Shown here: piece by piece, positions 22,639 through 64,000 of the stretch
Layout of the letters: the number at the start of each line of letters is the position of its first letter
How positions within the stretch are numbered: position 1 is the first letter of the stretch
NCBI RefSeq assembly: GCF_000010425.1
Contig: NC_008618.1
Span: 1,853,946 to 1,917,945, forward strand
DNA: 64,000 nt
DNA from: Bifidobacterium adolescentis ATCC 15703
Lineage (GTDB): Bacteria; Actinomycetota; Actinomycetes; Actinomycetales; Bifidobacteriaceae
Reading direction: 5' to 3'
Program-made: the position numbers and the translations under genes
The notes under the pieces: model-generated
Told to the model about the DNA's origin: nothing
The model's input: the letters and a program-made list of their open reading frames with translations, nothing else
Database searches by the model: none

Positions 22639-22938
22639 GACATCAAAGCCATGTGTGGATATGCAAACGGCCGCCATCAATCATGGTGATGTTGGCCGTT
22701 CACGTCCCATTAAATATACTTTCGCACCGTATCTGGCTTATATACGGCAGATTCGGGAGACTTGGATTCACAGCTGGGTCATTAGGCCAGAACGTACATC
22801 CGGCTCTCGCAGCCATTTCCTGACGAAGCCAACTACTTGCAGCACGTTATTTCCCAATCGCCACTTACCGGACCCAATTGCCAGGCTGCGCCGCATCCGC
22901 CATGACGCACCGTCGCAAACGCTCCCGTCTGACGCGCT
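22639..22938. other. Intergenic region at the locus border
   Basis: No gene is supported. The stretch is mixed in base composition and marks the change from housekeeping genes to the polysaccharide locus. No terminal inverted repeats or attachment-site duplications were seen. Confidence 0.45.
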
Positions 22939-60558: not shown

Positions 60559-61959
60559 ATGTTCGTTCTCAAGAACGCATGGGCTGCGCTCGGTCGCGTC
60601 AAATGGCGTACCGCGCTGACGGCTTTGCTTGCACTGCTGGTGTCGTTCTCAGCCGCCGTGGATCTGGCGGTGCTGAGGGCAGATGACAAGGCGAATAACG
60701 AAACATACCAATCGCAGAAAGCTTCGGCGGTAATTCGGCCGAGCGCGAAAGTCACTGCGAAACGCGACGGCGCGGACTCCAATTACACCGCCAATTACAT
60801 GACGTGGGACATGTACACCAAGTACGCGGAAGCGGTGCAGAAGAACAACTTGACGTTCGAATACACGCTCGCCACGTCGGTGCCGGTGCGCGCCAGCAAG
60901 TCGCTGCAGGCGATCGCGGCGAAAAGAGACACGAGCGAGGACAAGACCGGCGGCAACCTGACGTTGCAAGCCTTCTACACGAACGATGCGGCGAAAATCA
61001 ACGACTACGGCACGTTCAAAGTGGTCAAGGGCAAGCAGCTGAACTACAAGACGGCCAACGACGGCGTGCTGGTCTCTCAGGCAGTGGCCAAGAAGAATAA
61101 TCTCAAAGTGGGCGACAAGGTGACCGTCGGCAATCCGACGAAGGCTTCCGAAACCTACAAATTCACCGTGCGCGGCATCTACGAGTACACCGGCGAGACG
61201 CCGGCCGGATACGGTTCCGACGCGAAATACGCGAAAGACAACCGCGAGAACGTGGTGTACACGTCGTACATCAACTTCGCGCAAAGCGGTCTGGATGTGG
61301 CCGGCACCAAGGGCTGGGCCATCCCGAACCTCAACATCATCTTCACGCTGACCGATTCGGCCACATACAACAAGTTCGTGCGACTGGTGACAAAGGCCAA
61401 GCTGGACACGTCGAAGTTCACGATCTCATCGCCGTCGCTTGATGCGTACAAGAAGCGCATCGCACCGCTGGACGCCGCCGCCAAGGCCGCGCGCACGGCG
61501 TTGTTGGCGACCCTGATCGTCGGCGGGCTCGCGCTGCTGGCATTGGTGCTGTGGGCCGCGATCGGTGGACGCCGTGACGAAATCGGCATGGCGATGGTTT
61601 CCGGCGTCACCAAGGGACGTTTGGGATGGCAATTCATGCTGGAAACGTTCATGATGACCGTTCCAGGCTGGGCAATCGGATTGATTGCCGGCGCGCTGCT
61701 GGCCAAGCCGCTTGGCACCGCATGGGCCGGTGGACAGGCTGTGGCCATCACATCCGCATCCGTGTGGAACATGATCTGGTACGGACTGGGCGCCTGCCTG
61801 GTTCTGGGCATCATCGCGTTCATGCGCGTGGGATTCTTCGATTTGGGTCAGCTGTTCGCAGGCCGTTCTGACGATTCGAACGAATCTGCCGAAGCGAAGA
61901 ACGCAGACGAGCCGGAGGAAACAGTCGAGTCGACGGAACGTACGGAGGTGAACGCATGA
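60559..61959 (+). CDS. FtsX-like ABC permease
   Basis: A 466-residue membrane protein of the MacB/FtsX type. TM1 (TALTALLALLVSFSAAVDLAV) near residues 16-36 is followed by a large extracytoplasmic domain (about 40-320). Then come three C-terminal helices: LLATLIVGGLALLALVLWAA, MMTVPGWAIGLIAGALLA, and WYGLGACLVLGIIAFMRV. The loop after TM2 has the FtsX coupling segment GGRRDEIGMAMVSGVTKGRL. The acidic tail ends in EETVESTERTEVNA. ATG at 60559 follows GGAGAAG; the frame is open to 60478. It overlaps the ATPase gene by ATGA. Such pairs move lipoproteins or peptides, or transmit force to hydrolases. Confidence 0.88.
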   Translation: MFVLKNAWAALGRVKWRTALTALLALLVSFSAAVDLAVLRADDKANNETYQSQKASAVIRPSAKVTAKRDGADSNYTANYMTWDMYTKYAEAVQKNNLTFEYTLATSVPVRASKSLQAIAAKRDTSEDKTGGNLTLQAFYTNDAAKINDYGTFKVVKGKQLNYKTANDGVLVSQAVAKKNNLKVGDKVTVGNPTKASETYKFTVRGIYEYTGETPAGYGSDAKYAKDNRENVVYTSYINFAQSGLDVAGTKGWAIPNLNIIFTLTDSATYNKFVRLVTKAKLDTSKFTISSPSLDAYKKRIAPLDAAAKAARTALLATLIVGGLALLALVLWAAIGGRRDEIGMAMVSGVTKGRLGWQFMLETFMMTVPGWAIGLIAGALLAKPLGTAWAGGQAVAITSASVWNMIWYGLGACLVLGIIAFMRVGFFDLGQLFAGRSDDSNESAEAKNADEPEETVESTERTEVNA

Positions 61960-62999
61960 GCGAGAAAGACGTGAAAGACAACGAAACCGAAGCATTGAAC
62001 AACGATGCTGCGGAAAACGCGGACATCGAGGCGGGCGAAACCGATATGGCCACGTCGATCGAATCGGTCGATTTCGCGGTGGTGTATGACGATGGAGGCG
62101 ATTCCATCGCAACCGAATCGGCAGAAAACGCGGAAAATACGGAAGGCATCGCCACGGAAGACAGCGTTGCCAGCGACAACGCGAATCGCGTGAACGAAAC
62201 GCTCGCATTGGGCGCGACCGACGACGAACAGTCGCTCGACCAGCACGAAACCGTACAGGCGGACTCCGCAACCAGCGTGTCATCGCAGATCGACCGCGAA
62301 ATCAAACATCATCGCAAGAAGGACGCATTCTTCTTCAAAGCGAACCCGACATTCGCGCTCGACCATGTGACGGTGCACAACCGCAAAACCGGTCGCAACG
62401 TGCTCAACGACGTTTCCCTGGCGTTCCATGCCGGCGCGACCCACGCGGTGCTGGTGGATGCCGAAGATGTCGAACAGCATCAGGCGCTGGTGGCCACCAT
62501 GGTCGGCATGATGCGGACGACCAGCGGCAACGTGATGCACAAAAGCACGAACCTCGCCGACGCGACACCGGTCGACGTGCTTGGACACCGCATCGGTTTC
62601 ATTCCGCAGCGGTTCGCCGTGCGCGGCGACCTTGACGCGGAAGGCAACGTGTTGTACGCCATGGACGCGTCGAACCGCAATTTCCTGCAGCCCAAGCCGG
62701 TGATTGCGCGCGAGCTGCTCAAGCGCGTGGGATTCGAGGAAGTGACTTCCGGTCTGCCGGTGGGCAAGATGAGTGCGTTGGACCAGCGTCGTGTGGCAAT
62801 CGCGCGTGCGCTGAGCTGCGAGGCGGAGGTGATTATTGCCGACGAGCCGACCGCTGGATTGAACCGTGACGACGCCGCCGTGGTGCTGGGGCTGCTGAAG
62901 AAGGCCAAGCGCGATGAAGATCGTAAGCGTGCGATTATTGTGGTGACCGATAATCCGGAGGTCGCCGATCAGATGGAGCATTGCGCGGAGCTTGAGTAG
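61956..62999 (+). CDS. ABC-transporter ATPase-like protein lacking the Walker A motif
   Basis: 347 residues. An acidic N-terminal extension (about 1-120, rich in Glu/Asp/Asn/Ala) precedes an ABC ATPase fold (about 125-347). Where Walker A (GxxGxGKS/T) should be, the protein reads VLVDAEDVEQHQALV, with no P-loop glycine pattern and no GK(S/T). The Q-loop (IGFIPQRF) is present. The signature is MSALDQRRVAIARAL instead of LSGGQ. Walker B is intact (VIIADEPTAGL). The switch region is VVTDNPEVAD, so the usual His is missing. The start ATG overlaps the FtsX-like stop (ATGA), so the pair is coupled. It may be a pseudo-ATPase or need a canonical partner. A strong terminator follows. Confidence 0.85.
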   Translation: MSEKDVKDNETEALNNDAAENADIEAGETDMATSIESVDFAVVYDDGGDSIATESAENAENTEGIATEDSVASDNANRVNETLALGATDDEQSLDQHETVQADSATSVSSQIDREIKHHRKKDAFFFKANPTFALDHVTVHNRKTGRNVLNDVSLAFHAGATHAVLVDAEDVEQHQALVATMVGMMRTTSGNVMHKSTNLADATPVDVLGHRIGFIPQRFAVRGDLDAEGNVLYAMDASNRNFLQPKPVIARELLKRVGFEEVTSGLPVGKMSALDQRRVAIARALSCEAEVIIADEPTAGLNRDDAAVVLGLLKKAKRDEDRKRAIIVVTDNPEVADQMEHCAELE

Positions 63000-63020: not shown

Positions 63021-63067
63021 AAAGCCTTGCGGACTGGTGTTGCATGCCAGTCCGCAAGGCTTTTTTC
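63021..63067 (+). terminator. Terminator after FtsX/ABC pair
   Basis: AAGCCTTGCGGACTGG (63022-63037) and CCAGTCCGCAAGGCTT (63047-63062), loop 9 nt, followed by TTTTCG. Perfect 16-bp stem. Confidence 0.96.
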
Positions 63068-63108
63068 GTGCTGGTTCGTTCCGGTTCATTCTGGGCGCAT
63101 GTCATATG

Positions 63109-63533
63109 CGCTATGTGTGGCAGATTCTTTCATCTTTGGAATCTCAAAACCGCTATGTGTGGCAGGTTGTTTGACGCATCGTGAGTTAGAGGGGCGGTTT
63201 TATGCCCCCCCTAATGTATGGCGGGAAAGAGAAGTGCCACAGATAGCGGCTTTCACTTTTCCGTAGATGGAGAATCTGCCACAGATAGCGGTTTTCAGTG
63301 CGCAAAACTCGGGCGGCGGCCAGGCTTCGAGGAATTTTCGGGTGTATCTCGCTTATGAATGGCGGATTTTTCCGCTCGACGCGTGCTATCTCGCTTATAG
63401 ATGGCGGATGGTTTTGCCGCATGAGACTTAGAGGGGATTGAACTTGCCCCCTAACACCTAGTCTTTCTGAGACACCCGCCATTCATAAGCGAGATAGCAT
63501 CCGGCAGACACCGAAATCCGCCATTCATAAGCG
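63109..63533. repeat. Intergenic array of short related repeats in alternating orientation pairs
   Basis: At least eight copies of a 15-16 bp motif. Type A: CGCTATGTGTGGCAG at 63109-63123 and 63151-63165 (plus), and its inverse TGCCACAGATAGCGG at 63235-63249 and 63277-63291. Type B: CGCTTATGAATGGCGG at 63350-63365, CGCTTATAGATGGCGG at 63392-63407 (plus), and CCGCCATTCATAAGCG at 63476-63491 and 63518-63533 (inverse). A and B are variants of one pattern (CGCT, AT, then TGGC(A/G)). In every pair the two copies are exactly 42 nt apart. A degenerate copy, CTAATGTATGGCGG, lies at 63211-63224. No ORF is supported. Function unknown. Confidence 0.9.
63184..63453. repeat. Pair of G4/C5 hairpins with shared arms
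   Basis: GTTAGAGGGG...CCCCCCCTAA (about 63184-63214) and CTTAGAGGGG...CCCCCTAA (about 63427-63454) have the same arms, TTAGAGGGG and CCCCCTAA, with different loops. They lie between the repeat pairs, about 240 nt apart. Confidence 0.7.
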
Positions 63534-63548
63534 AGATAAGTAGGTTCG

Positions 63549-64000
63549 CTACTCGGCGATGCGCATGTGGTACTGCTCGGCGAGCGGTTTGACGTCGAGG
63601 ACGCCGTAGCGTTCCAGAAGGCGCAGCCATTCGCGCTTGTTGCTTTCGCCGAAACGGGCGGCCTTGCGCGTGTAGGCTTCGGCGGTCAGGAACTTCGGCG
63701 GAATCGACTTGCTGTTGTACTTGTCCGCCACCATGACGACCTCCTGCTCGAGGTTCATCGGCACGTAGTCGGCCGGGGGCAACGGCAATCCCTGCGATTC
63801 CACGGTTTCGCGGGTGAGGCCCACACCTGTGTGGTTGCGTGCGAACTGGGCGATCGATTCGTCAACGCCCTCGTTCAGCAAGTATTCGTAGCCTTTGAGC
63901 CCGTGCTGAACATAGTGCGGACCGTCGAATTTGAGCGGTTCGCCGTCGGAACCGTCCTGCTTGAGCAGGAAATACGTGCCGATGTCGTGCAGCAAACCGC
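63549..64000 (-). CDS. HD-domain phosphohydrolase, incomplete at window edge
   Basis: The C-terminal 150 residues of a minus-strand gene that continues past the right end. It starts in view at GLLHDIGTYFLL, an HDIG metal-binding motif, followed by YVQHGLKGYEYLLNEGVD, FARNHTGVGL, and a conserved block EQEVVMVADKYNSKS. This is the HD superfamily of nucleotide or phosphate ester hydrolases. The first His of the HD motif set lies outside the window. No start can be given. Substrate is unknown. Confidence 0.85.
   Translation of the reverse strand, partial: GLLHDIGTYFLLKQDGSDGEPLKFDGPHYVQHGLKGYEYLLNEGVDESIAQFARNHTGVGLTRETVESQGLPLPPADYVPMNLEQEVVMVADKYNSKSIPPKFLTAEAYTRKAARFGESNKREWLRLLERYGVLDVKPLAEQYHMRIAE

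Follow-up and report, generated by a model that had tools for sequence, protein, structure and literature searches.

Helically phased four-site palindromic repeats of Bifidobacterium and their linkage to genes for DUF559 proteins

A single intergenic site of Bifidobacterium adolescentis ATCC 15703 (genome G000) carries two adjacent palindromic repeats, which we term elements A and B, between two convergent genes. To their left the window (the whole stretch of 64,000 nucleotides that was analyzed) encodes an ABC-transporter ATPase (61956-62999, + strand), the 3' end of which faces the elements, and a terminator-like hairpin (63021-63063) precedes element A. To their right lies a gene on the - strand with its 3' end at 63549, which is annotated as coding for an HD-domain protein. 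Both elements display the same layout, namely a copy of a motif R on the + strand, a second copy 42 nt on, about 60 nt with a central palindrome, a copy of R on the - strand and a last one 42 nt on. The features of the site are given below, with the limits of the two elements being the coordinates of a covariance model to whose seed both of them belong.

63105-63293, no strand: element A, a complete four-site palindromic element with type A R (covariance model 123.6 bits, E 4.6e-30; G000:C1:1917050-1917238)
63109-63123, + strand: A-R1, CGCTATSTGTGGCAG (motif scan)
63151-63165, + strand: A-R2, 42 nt after A-R1 (motif scan)
63185-63214, no strand: central palindrome of A, GTTAGAGGGG..CCCCCCCTAA (read from the sequence; hairpin in the fold)
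63234-63248, - strand: A-R3, with one mismatch (motif scan)
63276-63290, - strand: A-R4, 42 nt after A-R3 (motif scan)
63346-63536, no strand: element B, a complete four-site palindromic element with type B R (covariance model 168.8 bits, E 5.0e-42; G000:C1:1917291-1917481)
63345-63365, + strand: B-R1, TATCTCGCTTATGAATGGCGG (motif scan)
63387-63407, + strand: B-R2, with two mismatches, 42 nt after B-R1 (motif scan)
63427-63454, no strand: central palindrome of B, CTTAGAGGGG..CCCCCTAA (read from the sequence; hairpin in the fold)
63476-63496, - strand: B-R3 (motif scan)
63518-63538, - strand: B-R4, 42 nt after B-R3 (motif scan)

A preliminary description of this DNA had pointed to an array of at least eight related motif copies in alternating orientation pairs, with exactly 42 nt between the members of a pair. 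All eight copies were located in the orientations it gave, and the start-to-start distance is 42 in each of the four pairs; what it took to be one array resolves into two four-site elements about 50 bp apart. The R motif differs between them, being CGCTATSTGTGGCAG in A and TATCTCGCTTATRRATGGCGG in B. The type B pattern finds four matches with up to three mismatches, against a mean of 0.00 over 100 shuffles. The shorter type A pattern is weaker when taken alone (six matches with up to three mismatches, a shuffle mean of 2.92 and 7 of 100 shuffles reaching six); its four true copies show 0-1 mismatches, and what is improbable is their arrangement rather than the motif count. The type B R is itself an imperfect palindrome, ATCTCGC-N8-GGCRGAT, with half-sites that by eye are steadier than the middle, which varies between genomes. 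As the layout is palindromic, A and B fold as long hairpins far below their shuffles (z -9.2 to -12.1). Elsewhere in the window, a solitary R-like site, TATCTGGCTTATATACGGCAGATT (22730-22753, + strand), stands with no partner sites and matches positions 3-35 of a half-element model (E 2.8e-4); it is probably the remnant of an element. A blastn search of plasmids and phages recovered no match to the window stretch.

The two elements belong to a family of palindromes of approximately 180-225 bp that combine a tandem R pair, a central palindrome and an inverted R pair. A covariance model (R1) built from 17 elements recognizes the repeat in 53 of the 112 Bifidobacterium genomes (E <= 1e-4) and, across the Bifidobacteriaceae, in 61 of 189 genomes from 4 of 16 genera (E <= 1e-3); blastn with element B alone detects the repeat in 13 of the 112 genus genomes. 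These genome counts are a lower bound because the model misses divergent R types: genome G002, for instance, has no model match, yet an element in it is revealed by a model-free scan. The copies and their 42-nt spacing recur in the genus, which refutes the reading as a local accident that the preliminary description had set against its own. In the single contig of G000 (2,089,645 bp), the model gives 11 elements and one weak fragment. The genus and family searches scored few candidates per genome, and the copy numbers from them are likewise lower bounds; wider scans found strand-matches numbering 66 in G014, 65 in G008, 46 in G111, 43 in G030, 26 in G019, 20 in G040 and 18 in G060, the elements being about half as many. 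Genomes scanned in this more generous manner hold about 9 to 33 copies each, with their geometry intact. Solitary and partial forms are also found, such as the inner-pair-only copies in G027, and different types recur within about 300 bp of each other, as do A and B in the window, at 121 kb in G000, in G069 and twice in G008. At a further locus of G000 (G000:C1:1724533-1729705, L158) half elements in reversed order are separated by 5 kb that includes IS-type sequences, and they seem to be the parts of a broken element.

The geometry of the family is strikingly constant. The R1-R2 spacing is 42 on both arms in every match of a scan that allowed 41-43, and when 30-60 was allowed, 53 of 54 matches were at 42 and one at 51, in a set of 51 loci already known to hold elements, some of which contain the same element twice. 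The proposal that 42 nt corresponds to four turns of DNA holds and can be extended, as the total length of the elements also steps by about one helical turn. Across seven genomes, 118 of 127 elements fall into the length classes 180-182, 188-193, 200-204, 211-215 and 222-226, i.e. about 181/191/202/213/223 and thus one DNA turn apart; the nine outside these classes measure 184 (two), 185 (two), 206, 219, 235, 241 and 259. The lengths are those of full-length + strand matches, comprising the complete set of 54 from G008 and G111 and 73 among the matches listed for five other genomes. Their periodicity at 10.5 has a resultant of 0.66 with a Rayleigh p of about 5e-25, which is overstated as copies within a genome are related, and the two separate length sets agree. 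The optimum lies at 10.6 and 10.9 for the two sets taken singly and at 11.0 for the pooled lengths, and the largest peak reaches 0.71 vs 0.32 for the 99.9% peak of uniformly drawn lengths. Length steps of one turn are what equal facing of the sites on duplex DNA predicts.

Outside the window, the same genome encodes a 308-residue protein (G000:C1:527106-528029) with a match to the Pfam DUF559 family (E 1.5e-5), and this gene together with an adjacent amidohydrolase gene is flanked by two type B elements. Searches with the protein matched 81 of 112 genomes at E <= 1e-8. When the best DUF559 matches of 30 genomes were considered as the close loci, a model-free scan found an element starting 5-286 bp after the DUF559 stop codon in 25 of them, and the covariance model added L256 and L266, so that an element lies 3' of DUF559 in 27 of the 30. 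Two loci, L275 and L282, have no element; L270, which was not counted, has a weak model match on its upstream side and, about 220 bp downstream, a stretch resembling R. The scanner gave no match on 67 kb of block-shuffled sequence. Among loci hand-chosen from the homologue list, distant paralogues (29-34% identity) had a downstream element in none of 20 cases, their stray signals being one 13-bit model match and one scanner match to a tandem repeat, and intermediate homologues had one in 2 of 20, both of them second DUF559 copies in the element-bearing genomes G008 and G111. Named records, which partly represent the same genomes, show a downstream element at 26 of 37 Bifidobacterium loci, about 15 of which have the order element-amidohydrolase-DUF559-element, including those of B. 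ruminantium, B. reuteri, B. callitrichos, B. myosotis and B. felsineum. The 42-nt element was found at none of 14 DUF559 loci from other genera or family-level bins.

A DUF559 match better than 1e-40 is present in 40 of the 53 genomes that bear elements. A close DUF559 is absent from the other 13, seven of which have only a distant one with E > 1e-40 (G004, G051, G065, G079, G095, G097 and G102) and six none at E 1e-8 (G005, G045, G055, G059, G060 and G078), with two of these six being less than 80% complete. Conversely, 12 of the 59 genomes with no model match carry DUF559 at E <= 1e-40. The DUF559 copy of G029 has an in-frame stop, consistent with the element-bearing genomes that lack DUF559 having lost the gene.

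An AlphaFold2 model of the DUF559 protein has a mean pLDDT of 85.5 and a pTM of 0.86. Residues 181-284 of the predicted model match the catalytic domain of I-Bth0305I (3r3p; Z 10.3, rmsd 2.0, 93 aligned residues) and also Vsr at Z 7.0, where a Z below 8 may reflect a common arrangement. Residues 20-175 match residues 57-195 of the AbiEi antitoxin (6y8q; Z 9.6, 129 aligned), with the AbiEi residues before 57 lying outside the aligned range, and Rv2827c at Z 6.1, below the safe level of 8 for this tool. Neither Foldseek nor a sequence profile against the PDB gave a match at E <= 0.001, the best for the latter being 0.032. Pfam searches with 26 family members recovered DUF559 in 18 and REase_MTES_1575 in 15. 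Four residues, E183, D216, H233 and D240, are invariant in all 26 sequences, and we take them to constitute the EDxHD motif. Their invariance fits an active nuclease, the roles of the individual residues being our interpretation. The predicted architecture is that of an AbiEi-like domain combined with a nuclease of the EDxHD/Vsr type. The neighbors of the gene were annotated at one locus, L237, and are the amidohydrolase and metY-like genes.

Comparisons between loci indicate that the R variant follows the DUF559 allele and not species relatedness. For instance, the DUF559 proteins of G069 and G019, both with type A elements, are 72.6% identical and those of G000 and G027, both with type B, 69.8%, vs 60.9% for G069 (type A) and G000 (type B). 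For the adjacent amidohydrolases, the identities are 94.7% (G000 and G069) and 83.1% (G000 and G027). Over 19 loci, the correlations are 0.80 for R with DUF559, 0.70 for R with the amidohydrolase and 0.93 for DUF559 with the amidohydrolase; a partial Mantel test on these loci gives r 0.58 (p 0.0005) for R with DUF559 given the amidohydrolase and -0.23 for the reverse. The second DUF559 copies of G008 and G111 each adjoin an R variant that differs from the one at the first copy. Of 14 elements read in G008, ten carry the first-copy variant, one (besides the second copy's own element) a second-like variant and two a third variant. Six of the nine read in G111 carry the first-copy variant and two a variant with no DUF559 found beside it, and the second-copy variant occurs beside its gene and nowhere else among the nine; in this genome the comparison of the two paralogs bears out the correspondence halfway.

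We also examined the occupancy of equivalent sites in related genomes. The intergenic site of the window was read in nine genomes. There is no element in G018, G019, G037, G040, G060 and G069, where the spacer is short and in most cases includes a terminator-like hairpin, and other palindromes occupy the site in G027 and G051 (20.7 and 12.1 bits). As the site is occupied in G000 alone, A and B are private to that genome among these nine; of the 111 loci holding the neighboring gene, 30 were scored with the covariance model, and a high score was obtained for G000 alone. One aminotransferase gene is followed by an element in G000, G019 and G040, with the type differing at this common position: B in G000 (L010) and A in G040 (L039). 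A comparison of four close genomes over 0-100 kb each uncovered presence/absence variation at four sites, at none of which was there a clean empty site, the intergenic DNA being too changed to place the junctions. At one of the four, G060 has a full element (G060:C1:11054-11234) and G019 (G019:C1, about 11.0 kb) a sequence that reads as one fused R, as if the element had shrunk to its outermost sites; we made no use of this single case.

The segment with the amidohydrolase and DUF559 genes has one orientation relative to the metY-like gene in G000, G027 and G029 and the opposite orientation in G069, G018, G019, G037 and G040. Both ends of the segment lie at elements in all eight genomes, those of G027 being inner-pair-only copies. 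Given the relationships suggested by the neighboring proteins, at least two inversions appear to be needed, and these could also come from ordinary recombination between repeats. In G045 and G059, the amidohydrolase gene occurs with one element and no DUF559; G051 has neither.

What the computations establish is a family of elements with a regular geometry, which is linked to DUF559 and varies along with it, and an interspecies inversion of a segment bounded by two copies. We consider it probable that A and B are duplex-DNA site arrays for a cognate AbiEi/EDxHD (DUF559) nuclease, and that the dispersed copies are non-autonomous and spread via this enzyme. Each element would offer four sites of about 23-25 bp, two per arm on the same helix face, around the central palindrome, such that two enzyme assemblies could sit in mirror image. 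We infer that the DUF559 protein binds R and cuts or nicks at the array; repair, or synapsis of two arrays, might then give rise to new copies, losses and inversions of the intervening DNA. The cutting would drive spread by break repair, in a homing-like manner rather than by conventional transposition, and the dispersed copies would depend on the enzyme as REPINs do on RAYTs. The preliminary description had offered a binding array and a non-autonomous mobile repeat as separate possibilities; the sequence data favor both, and they are probably two sides of one thing. As a more tentative proposal, one to which we would give somewhat less than even credence, this could constitute a further mode of spread of short bacterial repeats, in which a dedicated AbiEi/EDxHD nuclease propagates a helically phased four-site palindrome of duplex DNA by break repair, the enzyme allele and the site variant are exchanged jointly at fixed loci, and paired elements serve as an inversion switch for the intervening genes.

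The fixed helical phasing and the conserved R sites would also fit if the elements were operator or nucleoid sites of benefit to the host, with DUF559 being a repressor or chromosome organizer and the arrays a regulon or domain markers. AbiEi-family proteins are described as repressors that bind inverted repeats, and positions such as the aminotransferase site are common to several species (G000, G019 and G040). Moreover, element density is higher near the contig start, with 30 of the 68 elements of five genomes (G000, G014, G019, G040 and G060) in the nearest fifth; the contig start was shown to be dnaA in three of the five, and G030 was tested apart with an assumed origin. However, orthologous copies enter this enrichment repeatedly, and G014 additionally has copies close to the terminus. 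The restriction of the window copies to G000 among nine genomes, the location of the linked element 3' of the DUF559 gene and not at its promoter, and the invariance of the nuclease-type residues speak against such host sites too, and we regard them as unlikely.

The dispersal of the elements, their terminal inversion and the variable occupancy of the window site are also in keeping with degenerate MITEs that were once mobilized by an ordinary DDE transposase, its autonomous copy since lost, the DUF559 link then being an insertion hotspot. However, a hotspot would not be expected to place elements with matching R variants beside a single gene family in 27 of 30 genomes. A scan of 50 elements (k 2-9, 15 offsets) found no target-site duplication at a consistent offset, with some cells above expectation (e.g. 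8 vs 2.2 for k=2 inside R and 4 vs 1.4 for k=4); these 50 remained from 53 scanner matches after removal of three artefacts, and in a few the wrong R set the register. As R contains TA, a duplication of TA would go unseen. Under the nuclease reading, homing-like break repair would leave no target duplication. A half-element model (R2) detected no autonomous element with the same ends in four genomes. Two sets of candidates for one were rejected: the halves of G000 at 1724533 and 1729641 are element parts split by IS-type sequences, and their order is not that of transposon ends; the isolated halves in G069 are degenerate elements or located at a contig end. A recombinase-in-trio origin of the ends was dropped, as a literature search for it was empty. 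The chance that the elements are such MITEs is accordingly a small one.

A structured non-coding RNA, which the preliminary description had also proposed, or a bidirectional terminator between convergent genes would account for the strong predicted hairpins and for the position of the window site. We compared the arms of 40 of the 42 elements from two genomes (19 from G045 and 21 from G059), namely those with a 60-nt centre. The arms are no more alike within than between elements for R1:R4 (p 0.47 in G045, 0.96 in G059) or R2:R3 (p 0.06 and 0.76), and for the spacers between the R sites the resemblance within an element is lower than that between elements (upper-tail p 0.99 and 0.96). The latter dissimilarity (L173-L188 of G045, L193-L212 of G059) suggests that palindromic elements may hide a polarity. 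Only at the centre is there a weak sign of pairing within elements, in G045 (p 0.03) but not in G059 (p 0.14). The lack of covariation between arms within elements argues for a duplex-DNA site array and not an RNA, and the predicted hairpins then follow from the agreement of all four sites with a single motif. RNAalifold reports two-sided changes in 26 of 42 pairs, which can arise from subtype differences between genomes and hence do not demonstrate pairing. Rfam matches in the window are confined to rRNA and tRNA, with no family at the gathering score across the element region; the best below it is MIR810 (47 bits vs a gathering score of 170), and these sub-threshold matches were set aside as mostly miRNA models that fit any long hairpin. 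One element (L005) sits between divergent start codons, which is at odds with a terminator between convergent genes. With uncoupled arms and lengths quantized by the DNA turn, the RNA was rejected, and we regard either version of this explanation as very improbable.

Some DUF559 genes in genomes with no four-site matches have palindromic repeats of another kind, with related sites, at their flanks; this pattern comes from an inverted-repeat scan of 12 loci made without a null and is to be read as a lead. The loci concerned, among them L376, L377, L379 and L385, include two-site repeats on both sides of DUF559 in G062, G033, G061 and G021 (among them the B. pseudolongum group) and, in G006, flanking pairs 22 nt apart, i.e. 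about two turns. A four-site palindrome with 41-nt spacing and an R near CTATCTGCCTTAAGTGCG lies beside DUF559 at L394 (G026:C26, 1210-1452), and L386 and L387 have no such flanking repeat. In 320 kb of G061, 11 matches were found with up to four mismatches, four of them the flanking ones, vs a mean of 4.0 and a maximum of 10 for shuffled patterns; there are no further convincing copies of the two-site repeat in that stretch. At L292 of G052, a tandem repeat of a CACACGCCCGGGGG-like unit runs from about 2800 at the contig end. That the elements are the marked ends of a DUF559-based selfish or defense cassette and the dispersed copies dead debris, as the flanking repeats of the B. pseudolongum group and the G061 result might suggest, is the least probable of the explanations, given the roughly 9 to 33 geometrically intact copies per genome and a PADLOC search that was blank for two of three DUF559 proteins with one weak mREase_II match for the third.

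Judging from the repeats with two sites or a 22-nt spacing around DUF559 genes in other Bifidobacterium lineages, further DUF559 proteins may be repeat-bound nucleases. The partnership of repeat and enzyme looks to be undescribed: the portion of the literature on Bifidobacterium repeats, MITEs, palindromes and DUF559 that is openly accessible holds nothing matching, which, as it mostly leaves aside subscription journals, is no proof of novelty. If the nuclease reading is true, it would suggest a function for part of DUF559, which Pfam still lists as of unknown function, and represent a second independent origin of the REPIN/RAYT lifestyle around a nuclease fold other than that of the HUH transposases. 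It could also be what gives rise to inversions and to differences between species in this major genus of the human gut.

MITEs, ERIC, BIME and RUP-type repeats are small non-coding palindromic elements that are dispersed in genomes. The elements described here differ from these in their strict 42-nt double sites and in that neither a target duplication nor a DDE transposase partner was found. With AbiEi and Rv2827c, the likeness resides in the predicted N-terminal domain of the DUF559 protein, which aligns to the C-terminal fold of AbiEi (Z 9.6; Rv2827c Z 6.1), and in the sites: two inverted repeats of 23 bp are bound by AbiEi and four by Rv2827c (PMC7319586), and the Bifidobacterium elements hold four sites of about 23-25 bp. 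Unlike in those proteins, the AbiEi-like domain is fused to a nuclease-like domain, and the repeats are 3' of the gene and dispersed rather than in a promoter, with no toxin gene adjoining DUF559 at L237, the one locus annotated. With the EDxHD homing endonuclease I-Bth0305I, the DUF559 protein shares the predicted fold of the catalytic domain (Z 10.3), and the dimer target of nearly 60 bp recorded for I-Bth0305I (PMC3943268) is about the size of one element arm (65 bp). In contrast to such endonucleases, the DUF559 gene is free-standing beside the repeats and not inside its own target (e.g. an intron), the targets are multi-copy palindromic arrays, and the protein has an AbiEi-like partner domain.

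Membership in the REPIN/RAYT systems was rejected by the Y1 transposase test: PF01797 is over the cut-off in 7 of 112 genus genomes and not in G000, and instead of a Y1 (HUH) transposase the linked gene is DUF559. A REPIN has two inverted REPs forming one hairpin, whereas the Bifidobacterium elements that were read have four sites, phased on duplex DNA, and arms without covariation. Since the defining RAYT is missing, the elements may be said to work like REPINs without being REPINs. REPINs are short palindromic extragenic repeats in inverted pairs with lineage-specific variants and solitary remnants (PMC3116915), and all of these are seen in the Bifidobacterium family too. Likewise, in both systems the dispersed copies share their motif with those adjoining one enzyme gene, which in Bifidobacterium is DUF559, at 27 of 30 loci.
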